The position numbers and the translations under genes are program-made. Of a stretch of 64,000 bases of DNA, positions 19,591 to 27,113 are shown in pieces. The DNA is taken from contig JAMXDE010000057.1 in assembly GCA_026770025.1 (NCBI GenBank), positions 1 through 64,000 on the forward strand, in the 5' to 3' direction. This DNA comes from Craspedostauros australis. Taxonomy: Eukaryota; Bacillariophyta; Bacillariophyceae; Mastogloiales; Achnanthaceae. The notes beneath the pieces were generated by a model. That model made no database searches and had not been told where the DNA came from. It saw only the letters and a list, made by a program, of their open reading frames with translations. Every line of letters begins with the position of its first letter. Within the stretch, counting starts at the first letter, position 1.

Positions 19591-19700
19591 CTGATATCCA
19601 TGAGGACAGATTCTGTCTGGGGAGACCAAAAATGGCCATTTTGGGCTCAGGAGACAAAGTTACCCGGAGGTTCGCCAAAATCCGGTCTGAGGAGACAATT
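19591..19700 (+). repeat. Left terminal inverted repeat region
   Basis: It contains CTGATATCCAT (19591), GTCTGGGGAGAC (19615-19626), CTCAGGAGAC (19646) and GTCTGAGGAGAC (19685-19696). It pairs with 24773-24868 in reverse complement, at roughly 70 percent by eye over the inner block. The palindromic words could be transposase-binding sites. Confidence 0.65.
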
Positions 19701-19989
19701 TTCAGTTCCACGTGATAAATCTCCACGATAGGATTTTGCGGTCGAATACTTTGACTAAAAGAAACTCTGCCAGCTCTTCGTTCTGACATCTCCTCCTCCA
19801 AGATTTTCTTCATCGTCATTGTTTCTTCGCTTTCCTCCAGATGGCAACAACCCTCCCTCTCCAACCTCCTTGCCTGCTGTGGTTCATTTCATCCCATCAT
19901 CAACCTCGCACCTCCTTGCTTATCATTCGCAGCATCCCCCATACTGCCTTCTTCTTCCAGCTTGCCTTCTTCGATACGTCAACTTCATC

Positions 19990-22900
19990 ATGGCATCTTC
20001 TCTTCCGCCTGATGCTCCCAATGCCAATGACAACTTGCCCACAGCTTCCACTCCACTTGCAACAACCGGCCATGGCAATGTCTCTCCATCCCAGCAGCTT
20101 CATCCCTTTGGACAAGTTTTGGATGATGGAATGGGTGATGCAGGCAAACACACCCATGAAGAAGAAGGAGATGGCATCTGTGTCAACAGTGATGACGAGG
20201 GTGCGGTGCCTACAGTGGTGCCTCCAGATCCTGTTGGCGATTTTGGAGTCCAACCGTGCTCACTTCCTGGCTACAGCCATCGCATCGTCCTCCCTCCGAA
20301 GAAGGGGAGTAGGGAGATCTCTGTGGAGTGGAAGGTGCTCTCGGCCTACAAGCATGCAACAAAAGTAACTGTTGGAGAAGCGCACAAGCTTGCTCTTCTC
20401 CATGCAAAGGAAGAGATTCGTTCACTGCGAACAGCTGTCTTGCAGCGCTTCCCCAAGAGTCCTCCTGGGTCTCCACCATACGTGCCAACACCCCATGACT
20501 TGATCCACGATGTGCTGGGCCCCACATCTCCCATTTTCATCCGTGCATTTGGCCCAAGCGGGTTGGGTTTCTCATATCCTGAGTACATGGAGTTTCTCTT
20601 TGCCATCACATCACAGATGGTGGAAGGCTGCACCGTTCGTCGGCTCTACGATGGCAGCAACGCTGCCACGCTTCCCAGCTTTCCCACCAGACAGCACTAC
20701 GTCAATCTCTGGGACCGAATTCGACGCAATGGAAACCCTGTCTCTCGGAATGGTCATCGCTTTGTTTGGACCGAATTGGAAAGTGCTTTCAACTTGACGC
20801 TTGAGATTCTTTGTCTTCGTCATCGTTGCCCGAATCGGATCGTCACATTGGATGATGACAAGGTCCATTGCAGCAGCCGTGCGGAGAGCAGCTATCTGCT
20901 TGGCATGAGACATACTCATGCAAATCGTAATGGGTAAGTGACAAACAGCATTGTGTGTTTGTTGCAGAGGGGTGGCATCTCCATTTCATGTTTCAATTCC
21001 TCACCCCAGGTCTCTGTCTTGTTTCCGTCTTCTGCGTTCCTTCAGATTAACCCTGAACACTCTTGTCCAGTCTGCTTCTGGACTTGTTGTGGGGTTGGCC
21101 GCTTGCCGAGATGGGTTCGATGACGACACCTATCGGTTGTTCACCCAACTAAAAGAGCCAGATGGTTCTTTTCGAAATCTAACCCTCATGACAGATCGAG
21201 GATACAACTGCCACAGCACTACCGCCTTCCTCACTACCAGGGGTGCCAATCTGGAGGGTACACACATGCGAGCCGGATACCTACCATTCACCTTCGGCCC
21301 ATCCATTGGCAAGGGTACACTCCAGATGAATATTGGGAGGAAGGGGCCAAGGATGGTGCATAGCGCTGTCACCAACAGCATCGGCAAACGACAATTGACA
21401 TGCTATGGATACCGACTCAACGAACAAACTGTACTTGCACTCTCCACAAGATCGAGTGGCTTCGAGTGGGACCTCACCCTCAGCAATGCCAGTGACCAAC
21501 AAAAGTACCAAGACATGGTGGAGAACAAGCATGGGAACAATCCAAGATCCCCACACTACCCACACTTCTTCCAAACATGCACTGTCAATCCAACACGATC
21601 GTCGGCAGTCAGAGCTGCCATATCCCAAACTCCCCTTGGCACAACCGGTGTTGTGGCTGCCGCATCCAAGAATGTCAAACAGCGTTGGGCAGATATGGTG
21701 TGGGATCTGCCTGTGGATGGACTCACCTGTGGCCAGGGTGACCATCTGTGGTTCGTCCACCGCCGCTTTGCGTTCACAAGCACCTCCACCTACAGCATGA
21801 TACAGAAGGTGCTTGAAAGCGGAGAGTGGTGCAATGCTGACAACGCCACCCTATTCAATCAACCTGCATGGGAGTGCATTGGCCGCTACTTGGGATATGA
21901 CGTGCTTGGTCGGAAGGCGAAGTACCACAATGCGTTGCAAGCAGAAAAGGCGAGATTGCGCGCACTTGATTTATACTCCAAACTCACAACTCCCACCTTC
22001 GATTCCCGTCATGTTGAAATTGCACTTCTCTCCTCTCTCCGCGACGATGCCCCTGAAGAGGATGCCTTCCCTGACAAAGAGTTCATCGAACTCATGGTTA
22101 TGTTCTACCGCAGCAAGGCCCAGCGAAGCAGAGCCACACGATGCAAAATGCTCCGCACCATCCTCGCTGATGACGACAAGGTTCGACGGCGATTCGTGGC
22201 CATCAGCGACACCTCCCTCAAGAAAGACCTCAAGGCTCGTCTCCCCAAAACCAATGTGACGAAAATGCCACGAGAGAAGGTTGTGGAGAGATTGGTTGCC
22301 CTGGGGATGAAGGAGATCGAACAGGAGCCCGACCATCCATCCAGTTTCCAGGCGGGAAGCACCACTTCAGAGTGGATGCACAAGCTTGACCACGACCTCA
22401 CAACTCTCATGTTACAATCGTGGTTCATGAAGTCGGTTCGGGGCAAGGCCGGAAAGCTCGCCAAGCTAGGCCACAAAAACGAAGCTCCCCTCATGAAGCA
22501 GGCCCTCCACTGTGTTGGAGTGGGCGGCGAGGGAAGGCAAGTGAAGGCGACGTACCAAGTGGGGGTGGTGCGAAACACTGATGCACCATACGCCCGTGCC
22601 TCCGTCGACTTCCTTGCGATCATCGGTGATCCAGAGGACGACAGCGACGATGAAGTCTTTGTTGTGGAGATCAAGACTCGGGCAACGACAGACACAGAAG
22701 ACCTCGAAAGACGGCACCAGCGGAAGGCCGATTGGGAGCATGGGACGGAGGGAAAGAGCCATGTGTTCGTGGATCTCCAAGACGACAAATGGAGGGCATT
22801 GTTCGAAAAGAAATCAGAGATGATTCAACTGCTTCATCATGCCTTCGTCTTTGGGGTGACAGGTGCAATGATTGTAATTGGTACGTTCAAGCATGAAATG

Positions 22901-24403
22901 GATGGAGCTCCTGCCATGAATTTCGAAAGTCGATACGCGGTGCTCACTCAAACTGTTCTTGCTTTTCTCCTCTGATCCACTCGATCCCGCCTCCTCCTAC
23001 CATCAGGTGATGCAACCGCTAACACCATAAGATCAATGTCCACACAATTCAAACCTGATCTACTTCAATCATATGGAATCGTGCTACAAAATCTGTATGA
23101 GCTGAAGTTGGAGTTTGCATACGCGGACTCCGCTGCCGCATCCCGCGAGGCAGCGTCAGGCAAGACGCTGCGAAAGTATCTGAATTCGAAACGAAACCCC
23201 CACAGGGGCTCAACCGGGGGGCGACACATTGCGGCATTGACAGAAGAGGATGTATTCCACCAATTGATGATATGGAAGGCATGCCAGGAACTACCAATGC
23301 CGGTGCCAAAGGTTCACACCTTGGTTCCATCGTTTGTAGCTCGTTGGAATTCATTCAAGGGCGGCTCCGATTTAATCACCAGAATGGTGAGGCAGCACAA
23401 GGTGCAGCCGCCATTCGCAACCTTCCAATGCCAAGCTGTGGTACGGATTTTGGAAGTCATCCTTCTGTTTCTGCACAAGCTAATGCACTACTGTTGCACA
23501 GACGATGTTCACACGAATAGAGACCTGGAGAACGCAACGGTGCTGCAGACCTACCGTGACATGTTGAATCATCGCAGCAGTGTTGCTGACTCGTTGGAAA
23601 CATTGCAAAGGGCATTTGGAGTCATCGTCGCCCAAGCCGCTGGCAGCAACAGAGAAGCAGGTGATGGCGACGAACGCACAAACTGGTTTATTCAGGGAGC
23701 AATCAACAACACAGGAGACACAGATTCGGATACAGACAATCAAATCTACGATGGTAGACCAACTGTTGAAGGCGAGGAGAGGGACGGAAAGAGCATTCGG
23801 AACCTGCTGTCTGGGAATCCAGCTGCCCCAACACCCGCCATGGCTGCGCTCGAACGACGTCTCCGCACGGGCAGCCATGAGCCCATCTTTTGTGAAAACG
23901 TGAAGAAACCCTGCGTCGTATGTGGGGTTGTAACGAAATGGATGTGCATGCAGTGTCACTTTTTTGCCTGCGTGCCTCCCACTGCAAATCACAAGAGATG
24001 GGGAGATGCAAATGGAGTGCATACCAGCATCTCAATGTCAAATCTACGAAAGAAGGCAAACGAACGAATCATTGCAAGCAACACATGTTTCCGAATGCTC
24101 CACGGAAGCAACAGATCATGGACAAGGAAGACCAAGGCGGATTACACTGAGTGGAGTGCGAAGCAACCGAACAGGAAAGGAGGGAAGCGAAAGACTCCAT
24201 CAGCAGTGCAAACAAGCAAAGATATCCAATCGAGCCAAGGAAGGAAACGAGCGAAACCCTCACCCCAGACTCCTGCTGAGACTTCGCCAGCACTACAGAG
24301 ACGGCGGACGCGCTCGGAGACAACTCCACAACGACCGCGAACGCGCGCAGCAGCTCAACAAGGAAAGTACAGCCATGGGAATGGGTCGAGATGTAACATA
24401 TAG
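19990..24403 (+). CDS. Transposase: DDE core + PD-(D/E)XK nuclease + Cys finger
   Basis: The predicted spliced product has 1391 residues from exons 19990-20933, 21046-22880 and 23007-24403. Intron 1 (112 bp) has a GTAAGT donor and TTCAG acceptor and keeps the frame. Intron 2 (126 bp) has GTACGT and a pyrimidine-rich ACCATCAG; it removes an in-frame TGA at 22973. I took the ATG at 19990 because upstream extension uses only TTG. The DDE-like core has D288 (TLDDDK) and D365 (LMTDRGYN). These are 77 residues apart, close to the 78 between D268 and D346 of piggyBac; the third acid is unclear (E/D near WDLTLS). Next, D836 (ASVDFLAI) and E856/K858 (VFVVEIKTR) give a PD-(D/E)XK nuclease pattern. Last, C1229, C1232, C1240, C1243 and C1248 form a cysteine finger like the piggyBac C-terminal one, followed by a basic tail. 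Without intron 2 there would be two proteins, of 957 and 455 residues. Confidence 0.7.
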
Positions 24404-24772
24404 CAAAGTAATAACACACAAATGTCCATCAATATGGGGTGGTGTATTGTTCCTGTGAAGAGGCGTGGTCACAAATCATTGTGATGCAAGAGGAAGAACG
24501 CTGCGGAACGATCATGTCCTGTGAAGAGCGTGGAGGACATGGATAAGCATGCAATGAACATATGTATACGAAGAACTGTGATGAGATGCAAGTGGCTCAA
24601 TGCATCCAGGAGAAGCATTGAGCCATAGTAAACAGGAGGGCATGCCAGGATATTGTGAGAAATCGGAAAAAAACGATATGAGGGGGGGAAAAAGTGAGCG
24701 CGAACAAATAGTTTTAGTCGAGGTGGTCGAAGAAAATGCCATCGCGATAAAACGTCGCGTTGCTTGATTTTG

Positions 24773-24868
24773 GTCTGAGGAGACCGATTTTGGCACCCCT
24801 CGAATCCGCTTGGTCTCCTGAGACAATTTTGGACTTTTATCGTGGACGAATTTCTTTATGGATATTAG
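24773..24868 (-). repeat. Right terminal inverted repeat region
   Basis: It contains GTCTGAGGAGAC (24773-24784), GTCTCCTGAGAC (24813-24824) and ATGGATATTAG (24858-24868). Read on the minus strand it follows the order of the left end, with about 46 rather than 55 bases between the outer and inner words. Confidence 0.65.
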
Positions 24869-25748: not shown

Positions 25749-27113
25749 ATGCCATTCATGAAGAAAGAAACCCTCGCTCTCGCTATCACGCAGAGCCTCA
25801 TCCTTGGCAATGTTACTGCATCATCCGAGGCGGACACTGCATCCAACGTGGATATCATCGCCGACATCCGCAACGCTCGCATCCAGAAGATGCAGCACAC
25901 ATCCACGAGCAAAAACCATGCTGTGGATACACAAAAGCAAGCCCTGGATAAGCTTGACTTGTTCTTGGCCCGCAAACCATGGAGCGAAAGCAATCACATC
26001 GCTTCTGAGACACGAAACACCACACCAAACACCAACCGACGCCCACGTTCCGTCTCCTCCCCCAACACCAACCACTACGTCGATCAAGGACGCCTGAGAG
26101 GAAGCGCAGGCGCGGCTGGTCCGAAACACGACTCTGGGGACGCCACCGCAAGTGCCGCAAGAGAGTCGCTGTTTGTGTCTCTCCGCCAGAAGACTGTCAA
26201 GACAAGCGGATCTGATGGACGCCAGCTCAAGGCATCCAAGGAATCGAAGCCACCTCGACCTGATGACGTGGACGAAGTTGACCCATGCTTCACTGGCACC
26301 TCAGACGAAGTCATCGCCAGCTGCGCCGCTGCCAACGCGACCTGCTGCGAGGCACCAGCAGACGACCAGAATCCTGCCTGCAGTTGGAGCGACGACGCCA
26401 ATGTCACGGTGTGTCCAAACTCTTGCAACGGCGATGGTGCCTGCTACTTCGACTCTAGCTCAGCAACGACCATCGAGATCGCTTCCTACTCTTGCAACGG
26501 CGAGATCGCATGTCACGGCATCGAAGTGGCAGTTCCCACATCGTCTTGCAACGGCGAGGCTGCTTGCTTTTTCAATACTGGTGAGATCGGTGAAGTATCC
26601 TGCAATGGTTACTTGGCGTGCTATCGTAACACTGGCAATGTGTCCAGCAGCGCGTGCTACGGCTACTTATCATGCACCGAAAACTCCGCGAGCATTGGAG
26701 AAGGATCGTGCTCTGGTGATTATTCATGCACAGTGAACGAAGGGACTGTGGGAGCGAACTCATGCGTCGGAGTCCGCTCATGCCTGAGCAATAAAGGAGC
26801 GGTCGACGATTCCGCTTGCTCTGGCGATCAGGCTTGCATTGTGAATGCCAATGCCATTGGCGAGGGTTCGTGCATCGAGAGTGACGCGTGTTCTTCCAAC
26901 AAGGCCGATGTTGGCAGCGCATCTTGCATTGGCATCCAGGCGTGCCTCATCAATAGGGGAACCATTGCAGACGACTCTTGTATTGGCAACAGTGCTTGCC
27001 TTGGCAACTCAGGAAGCATCGCAGACGAAGCCTGCGTCGGCCAATTCGCGTGTTCCTTCAACTCCTTGAACGTCGATGCGGGAGAATGCATTGGCAACAA
27101 CGCATGCTCATAG
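25749..27113 (+). CDS. Secreted cysteine-repeat protein
   Basis: The 454-residue protein starts at an ATG. A signal-peptide-like N-terminus (KKETLALAITQSLILGNVTA) is followed by a polar spacer and a Cys-rich block (DPCFTGT..CCEAP..). The last 225 residues are 13 tandem repeats of about 18 residues, of the form [SA]C-x-G-x-x-[AS]C-x-x-N-x-G-x-[IV]-(4). Each carries two cysteines spaced C-x5-C. The regular 18-residue period suggests a beta-solenoid, with stacked cysteines that may pair or bind metal. The repeats run right up to the stop, with no membrane anchor. An extracellular or cell-wall role is inference; I recall similar repeats in other diatom proteins but know no function. Confidence 0.85.
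   Translation: MPFMKKETLALAITQSLILGNVTASSEADTASNVDIIADIRNARIQKMQHTSTSKNHAVDTQKQALDKLDLFLARKPWSESNHIASETRNTTPNTNRRPRSVSSPNTNHYVDQGRLRGSAGAAGPKHDSGDATASAARESLFVSLRQKTVKTSGSDGRQLKASKESKPPRPDDVDEVDPCFTGTSDEVIASCAAANATCCEAPADDQNPACSWSDDANVTVCPNSCNGDGACYFDSSSATTIEIASYSCNGEIACHGIEVAVPTSSCNGEAACFFNTGEIGEVSCNGYLACYRNTGNVSSSACYGYLSCTENSASIGEGSCSGDYSCTVNEGTVGANSCVGVRSCLSNKGAVDDSACSGDQACIVNANAIGEGSCIESDACSSNKADVGSASCIGIQACLINRGTIADDSCIGNSACLGNSGSIADEACVGQFACSFNSLNVDAGECIGNNACS

Follow-up and report, generated by a model that had tools for sequence, protein, structure and literature searches.

In the DDE transposase of Dada elements from Laccaria bicolor and Ectocarpus siliculosus, the second catalytic Asp is followed by a DEDDy exonuclease, and the DxxH motif comes after it (PMC3706591). 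ISL2EU elements encode a DDE transposase and, in its own open reading frame (ORF), a YqaJ-type nuclease (PMC4482050). KolobokP, another eukaryotic transposon, has gained a nuclease in addition to its transposase (PMC9587614). The cysteine-rich domain of piggyBac binds, as a dimer, to a 19-bp palindromic internal repeat located at tip bp 17–33. Transposition of piggyBac starts with the 3'-OH attacking a position four nucleotides inside the flank and continues through a hairpin and a 4-nt overhang to seamless repair (PMC7351741). Here, a repeated element is described from the diatom Craspedostauros australis. It lies in positions 1–64,000 of contig JAMXDE010000057.1 (C55:1-64000; this whole 64,000-nucleotide stretch is called the window), in a genome of 74.8 Mb in 90 contigs. 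The element is probably, at a rough probability of 0.6, a cut-and-paste transposon encoding a spliced piggyBac-like DDD transposase. In this protein, ~550 residues including a YqaJ/lambda-exonuclease-type PD-(D/E)XK nuclease would lie between D365 and D1048, followed by a Cys finger.

The Element and Its Target Site Duplications

The fused frame is carried by a multi-copy transposon with defined ends. A DNA search of the genome with a 4,414-bp query (window 19990–24403) returned 11 full-length copies, in which the whole query is matched at 95–100% identity. Additional copies are one cut by a contig end (91%), one split on C8 and one partial on C69. Among the fetched loci, the homology between copies fades at ~19594 and ~24865, and the flanks beyond differ between copies, except for a right flank common to L010 and L021. 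The repeat including its duplications is 5.27 kb (19594–24865). The transposon between the duplications is 5264 bp (19598–24861, + strand), and the homology between copies stops at these positions.

The same search revealed 14 deletion derivatives, all without the stretch matching window positions 22589–24286. The breakpoints were read in eight of the 14 (on L022–L028). Both ends are retained in the derivatives, and the missing stretch takes out the nuclease motif (D836, E856 and K858), D1048 and the finger. At L025 (C16:405596-415595), two deletion derivatives are arranged head to tail with one ATAT shared between them.

The 4-bp sequence ATAT is present on the left (19594–19597) and on the right (24862–24865) of the window copy. 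Genome-wide, ATAT precedes 24 of 25 exact left tips. Equal 4-mers flank both tips at all 17 compared sites, ATAT at 16 and ATAG at one; this comparison leaves out L020 (truncated), L021 (at a contig end) and L025 (the tandem pair). Uninterrupted paralogous sites were found by a search with joined flanks for at least three of the 17 insertions (L019, L027 and L011). Among the best 40 candidates, there are at least 38 such places for L019 and one each for L027 and L011. Four empty sites were read, two of them for L019, and each has a single ATAT at the position of the element in the filled copy. The 4-bp ATAT target duplication is therefore genuine. The L019 insertion itself (C2:1740195) is inside a multi-copy repeat.

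The Fused Gene and Its Conservation

The gene consists of three exons on the + strand. Exon 1 (19990–20933) encodes the N-terminus, the helical region and D288. Exon 2 (21046–22880) encodes D365, the middle region and the nuclease. Exon 3 (23007–24403) encodes D1048, the linker, the Cys finger, the tail and the stop. Intron 1 (20934–21045, 112 nt) and intron 2 (22881–23006, 126 nt) are both GT..AG. Joining the three exons gives 1391 amino acids (aa), just as the first-pass annotation had claimed, and the D288, D365, D836, E856 and K858 that it named are found at exactly these residues of the spliced product. A closer acceptor would shorten intron 1 to 34 nt; this option was considered and rejected, since the relatives back the acceptor ending at 21045. 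The two introns are the same, in frame and GT..AG in all six spliced members (window, L030, L031, L039, L040 and L041), of which L040 has a stop in exon 2.

The identity between subfamilies is 44–57%, and L039 and L040 are 93% identical. The five named residues are invariant over the seven compared lineages wherever letters exist; L042 enters the lineage alignment without nuclease and exon 3, as its letters become an N-run from ~4502. The first two blocks are present in L042 ahead of the N-run, and L043 (~30% identity) has the same three blocks in the same order. A core match is seen at 22 deep loci (27–32% identity to L041). The nuclease piece adjoins the core in 20 of these 22, and the exon-3 piece is nearby in 20 of 22. 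Both pieces are missing at C28:213421 (L042, N-run). The nuclease alone is missing at C16:1211856, and the exon-3 piece alone at C3:3614818.

Nine of the 11 full-length copies retain D288, D365, D1048, E794, D836, E856 and K858 together. The exceptions are L017, with K at 794, and L014, with a stop at 365 and an altered length. The whole spliced frame is open in four of the 11 copies, and the other seven have a premature stop. The pooled ratio of nonsynonymous to synonymous polymorphism (pN/pS) of the 11 copies is 0.27. These facts indicate that the fused frame and its catalytic-type residues are conserved over lineages under purifying selection, and a chance open frame is ruled out by this conservation and by pN/pS.

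Relatives of the family were not found in the viral or prokaryote contigs searched. Searches of PDB sequences with exon alignments gave only chance-level matches for exon 3, such as the HDAC6 zinc finger on the finger of the element (E 1.6). A Pfam match to TPGS1_C (E 0.0039) in two of six exon-3 members is weak and is not believed. Five old copies of exon 3 (C2:37679, C16:1387511, C62:97756, C17:102509 and C40:10047) contain 9–10 TGA and 1–2 TAG/TAA stops. Such an excess of TGA is what C-to-T decay of CGA codons would be expected to leave. The copy at C6:265545 (2 TGA, 2 TAG and 4 TAA) does not fit the pattern.

The Nuclease Region

The YqaJ/RecE-like PD-(D/E)XK nuclease region corresponds to residues 765–926 (22394–22879, + strand). 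Its residues E794, D836, E856, K858 and Q909 are invariant and in the YqaJ-type order in the lineages with letters there. The region was compared by hhalign with ten YqaJ/RecE-type proteins, nine from phages and one from the same genome. E794, D836, E856 and K858 fall on the YqaJ catalytic columns in one alignment, and the paired motifs are GHxxE, SVD with SPD, and EIK. PHROG 434, a RecE-like exonuclease family, is matched by one of four scanned segments (L043, E 0.0028); the scan of the window segment against PHROG gave no match. The tblastn search of phages with the L043 nuclease gave nothing at E below 0.5. A match of L043 to Viral_alk_exo (E 0.15) is outside the nuclease region and is not believed.

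Purifying selection on the nuclease region is strong. Pooled pN/pS of the 11 full-length copies is lowest in the C-terminal tail (0.079), followed by the nuclease (765–930; 0.117), residues 100–465 (0.224), the D3 region (0.247), the middle (0.284) and the finger (0.293), and it reaches 0.804 in the linker. The nuclease thus has the lowest value among the named domains, the tail excepted. In the four open copies, the values are 0.092 for the nuclease, 0.127 for 100–465 and 0.093 for the tail. Between L039 and the broken L040, the nuclease is not special (0.289 vs 0.176 for the core).

The predicted order of elements starts with a helix that carries E794, followed by three strands, the second with D836 and the third with E856, and ends with two helices, the last of which contains Q909. 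This fits what a restriction-endonuclease fold needs, in a model block with a predicted local distance difference test (pLDDT) score of only 29–58.

The single YqaJ-family match found in the genome is at L038 (1267–2358, - strand). It is a stand-alone ORF of 363 aa with an N-terminus that is hydrophobic by eye, and it is ruled out as part of such an element.

The Transposase Core and the Third Aspartate

The proposed first and second catalytic Asp are D288 (codon at 20851–20853) and D365 (21194–21196). Exon 2 of L041 matches PF01609 (DDE_Tnp_1) over the D2 region at E 1.3e-4; its 22.3 bits fall just short of the cut-off of 23. Ordinary piggyBac-type elements are abundant in the genome, and the frames of some are about 870 aa long (genome scan; L032–L037); PF13843 has 160 matches in it, pieces of one element being counted separately. 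A local piggyBac profile was built from six of these PF13843 loci; more piggyBac relatives to deepen it were not found in phages or viral contigs.

In the hhalign register, D288 falls on piggyBac D1 and D365 on D2 in one alignment, and in none of 200 shuffles are both paired with D. Segment 140–255 falls on the N-terminal helical region of piggyBac, in an alignment made without a shuffle control. D1048 (23369–23371) falls on D3, a pairing seen in two of 200 shuffles. D1048 is in the motif WN..KGGSD, which is present in all seven exon-3 rows and resembles YN..KGGVD of the piggyBac in PDB. KGGSD aligns with MGGVD of piggyBac. Based on this alignment with the third-Asp motif, D1048 is proposed as D3, with ~550 residues inserted between D2 and D3. 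The D1–D2 spacing is 77 in the element and 75 in the piggyBac-type L034, and the D2–D3 spacing is 683 vs 124.

The DDD triad is thus probably D288, D365 and D1048, as judged from the register and not from significant scores. The nuclease is then probably nested between D365 and D1048 and not added to a complete core. The first-pass annotation had proposed a piggyBac-like core, a PD-(D/E)XK nuclease and a finger in one polypeptide. As a union of a piggyBac-like core, a motif set of the PD-(D/E)XK type and a piggyBac-like finger, this combination is supported; it is conserved across lineages and borne by a transposon. Two points have to be revised: the nuclease is probably nested rather than appended, and the element targets ATAT instead of TTAA.

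Tips, Subterminal Palindromes and the Cys Finger

The left tip of the window copy is CCATGAGGA (19598–19606, + strand), an inverted repeat of the right tip. The right tip reads CCATAAAGA from the right (24853–24861, - strand), and in several other copies the inverted repeat is exact. The tips start with CCACGAGGA in L030 and CCACGGTGA in L031. ATAT and tips starting with CC are common to these three lineages. In L039, such tips were not found in the stretch examined.

Palindromes are found inside both ends. On the left, GTCTGGGGAGAC (19615–19626) is at offset 18, a degenerate palindrome (19644–19655) at offset 47 and GTCTGAGGAGAC (19685–19696) at offset 88. On the right, GTCTCCTGAGAC (24813–24824) is at offset 38 and another palindrome (24773–24784) at offset 78. 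These offsets agree in the window, L030 and L031 (left 18/19, 47 and 88; right 38 and 77–79). Within the outer 100 bp, the window and L030 carry the palindrome as GTCTnnnGAGAC, and L031 carries it as GCGTCAGGACGC. The palindrome at +47, degenerate in the window, is a hybrid in L031. In L031, both halves of the palindromes are altered jointly, which fits sites that a symmetric dimer would recognize. Four places in the 64-kb window have the motif (five strand matches), every one inside the element ends; 100 shuffles gave a mean of 0.58 and a maximum of 4.

The Cys finger extends from C1222 to H1255 (23891–23992, + strand). A C-terminal finger with five Cys had been claimed earlier. The finger is there, and the count was nearly right: six Cys and one His are invariant (C1222, C1229, C1232, C1240, C1243, H1244 and C1248). 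In hhalign, C1240, C1243 and C1248 fall on the piggyBac finger, and a Cys falls at that column in nine of 200 shuffles.

Outside the element, a 454-aa open frame at 25749–27113 (+ strand) repeats a short Cys motif many times.

Alternative Interpretations

Several results weigh against a piggyBac-like core with a nested nuclease. Neither the window exons nor the other scanned pieces of the family match PF13843 (DDE_Tnp_1_7) at E up to 10, although ordinary piggyBac elements of the same genome match strongly (5.9e-49 for the control L037). The Pfam scan of the three window exons returned no match at all at E up to 10. Against piggyBac, none of the hhalign scores exceeds its controls: 17.8 for the whole protein (100 shuffles with a median of 19.4; reversed profile 23.2), 17.5 for the core (95% of 200 shuffles, 20.7), 17.5 for the D3 segment (95% of 200 shuffles, 19.4) and 16.9 for the finger (95% of 200 shuffles, 19.2). 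It is the register alone that speaks for homology to piggyBac. The AlphaFold models are poor, with a mean pLDDT of 50 and a predicted template modelling score of 0.33 for exons 1–2 (the read-through L040 copy) and a mean pLDDT of 34 for exon 3. Foldseek with the model of exons 1–2 gave 408 matches at E <= 10, none of them at E <= 0.001. The absent PF13843 match, the scores within shuffles, the ATAT target and PF01609 as the only Pfam match of the core would also suit a separate DDE/DDD superfamily, not close to piggyBac, that kept an internal YqaJ-type nuclease and converged on similar ends and finger. This is possible but doubtful, since the triad register, the finger, the 4-bp palindromic duplication and the position of the palindromes agree together. 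The core might instead be complete in exons 1–2. Its third acid would be D547 (QGDH), and everything downstream of this full RNase-H core, namely the nuclease, the KGGSD region and the finger, would be appended domains. D547 is likewise invariant in the seven lineages, within a strongly conserved block, and its distance of 182 residues from D365 is more usual than 683. However, none of the alignments read pairs D547 with a catalytic column of piggyBac, whereas the invariant KGGSD resembles KGGVD and is paired with D3. We regard D547 as the third acid as unlikely, slightly more so than the separate superfamily.

The nuclease assignment has its own difficulties. The hhalign score against YqaJ is marginal, 20.3, with 95% of 200 shuffles at 18.5 and a maximum of 24.3. 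The helical middle segment of the family scores 25.4, so the YqaJ score by itself is weak proof. PF09588 is unmatched in the scanned pieces of the family. Together with the low-confidence model, these results could mean that residues 765–926 are a DNA-binding or structural domain without an active PD-(D/E)XK nuclease, whose motif has been kept for reasons of the fold. Four invariant catalytic-type residues, a pN/pS of 0.117 and the match of L043 to PHROG 434 make this improbable, the least probable of these alternatives.

Possible Mechanism and Significance

If the transposase is piggyBac-like with a nested nuclease, the finger would bind the subterminal palindromes as a dimer. The DDD core would cut the element ends and join them to ATAT, probably via 4-nt hairpins by analogy with piggyBac. 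The piggyBac pathway can be written with ATAT unchanged, from the attack four nucleotides into the flank through hairpin and overhang to seamless repair. The deletion derivatives may have been moved in trans. A role of the nuclease in processing DNA ends within the same complex is less sure.

YqaJ-type activity is that of a 5'-3' exonuclease. A nuclease of this type in the complex would take off complementary overhangs and resect the 5' strands of the donor. Resection of the donor would prevent the break from being simply rejoined and make repair from the sister copy more likely, resulting in the gain of one copy. We tentatively prefer this role at the broken donor site, at somewhat less than even chances. 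Trimming or opening of the transposon ends, or processing of hairpins, is a little less likely. It can also be speculated that the element represents a distinct DDD lineage with ATAT as its target. Its split RNase-H core would hold a full YqaJ-type nuclease at the place of the piggyBac insertion domain, and a single enzyme would move the element as well as resect the break left behind, biasing repair to copy gain. This fuller picture is rather unlikely as a whole.

If the nesting is true, transposition and DNA-end processing would be joined in one natural protein chain. After Dada, whose exonuclease is unrelated, it would be the second case of a nuclease in the interval from D2 to the last acidic residue. 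This would suggest that nucleases have entered this place of the fold more than once, and that DDE transposons repeatedly need to have ends processed. Whether an element-borne nuclease alters the repair of the donor break becomes a directly testable question. A piggyBac-like enzyme choosing ATAT could be of interest to tool builders, too.

Comparison with Known Systems

No piggyBac-like transposase with an internal nuclease was found in the literature searched, which was covered partially and without Repbase or Dfam. KolobokP resembles the element as a eukaryotic transposon pairing a transposase with an acquired nuclease. Its nuclease is a His-Me finger homing endonuclease downstream of the transposase, and Kolobok has TTAA duplications and 5'-RR tips, whereas the element has ATAT and CC tips.

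ISL2EU also contains a DDE transposase and a YqaJ-type nuclease within one element. Its nuclease is in a separate ORF, its transposase is of the helix-turn-helix (HTH)/THAP type and the duplication is 2-bp AT. In the element described here, the nuclease motifs share one exon with D365, which rules out a separate nuclease gene of the ISL2EU style, and the duplication is 4 bp.

Dada offers a real precedent for nesting, with an exonuclease domain at a similar place after D2. The Dada domain is a DEDDy 3'-5' exonuclease, not PD-(D/E)XK, and Dada generates 6–7-bp duplications in small RNA genes and has no terminal inverted repeats. The element has the 4-bp ATAT duplication and inverted tips.

The closest likeness is to the piggyBac superfamily. 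The putative DDD triad with D1 and D2 77 residues apart and the WN/YN..KGG-x-D motif of the third Asp are alike at the sequence level, and a 4-bp palindromic duplication is found in both. The C-terminal Cys finger is matched by motif, and the palindrome by position, as a putative binding site: it begins from ~bp 18 in the element, compared with bp 17–33 for the site in piggyBac. The differences are the long D2–D3 interval with a YqaJ-type nuclease in between, and the tips, which are CCA in the element and CCC in piggyBac, as read from an oligonucleotide in PMC7351741. Because the element duplicates ATAT and not TTAA, and has no Pfam piggyBac match, an ordinary piggyBac is ruled out and the element is not filed as piggyBac.

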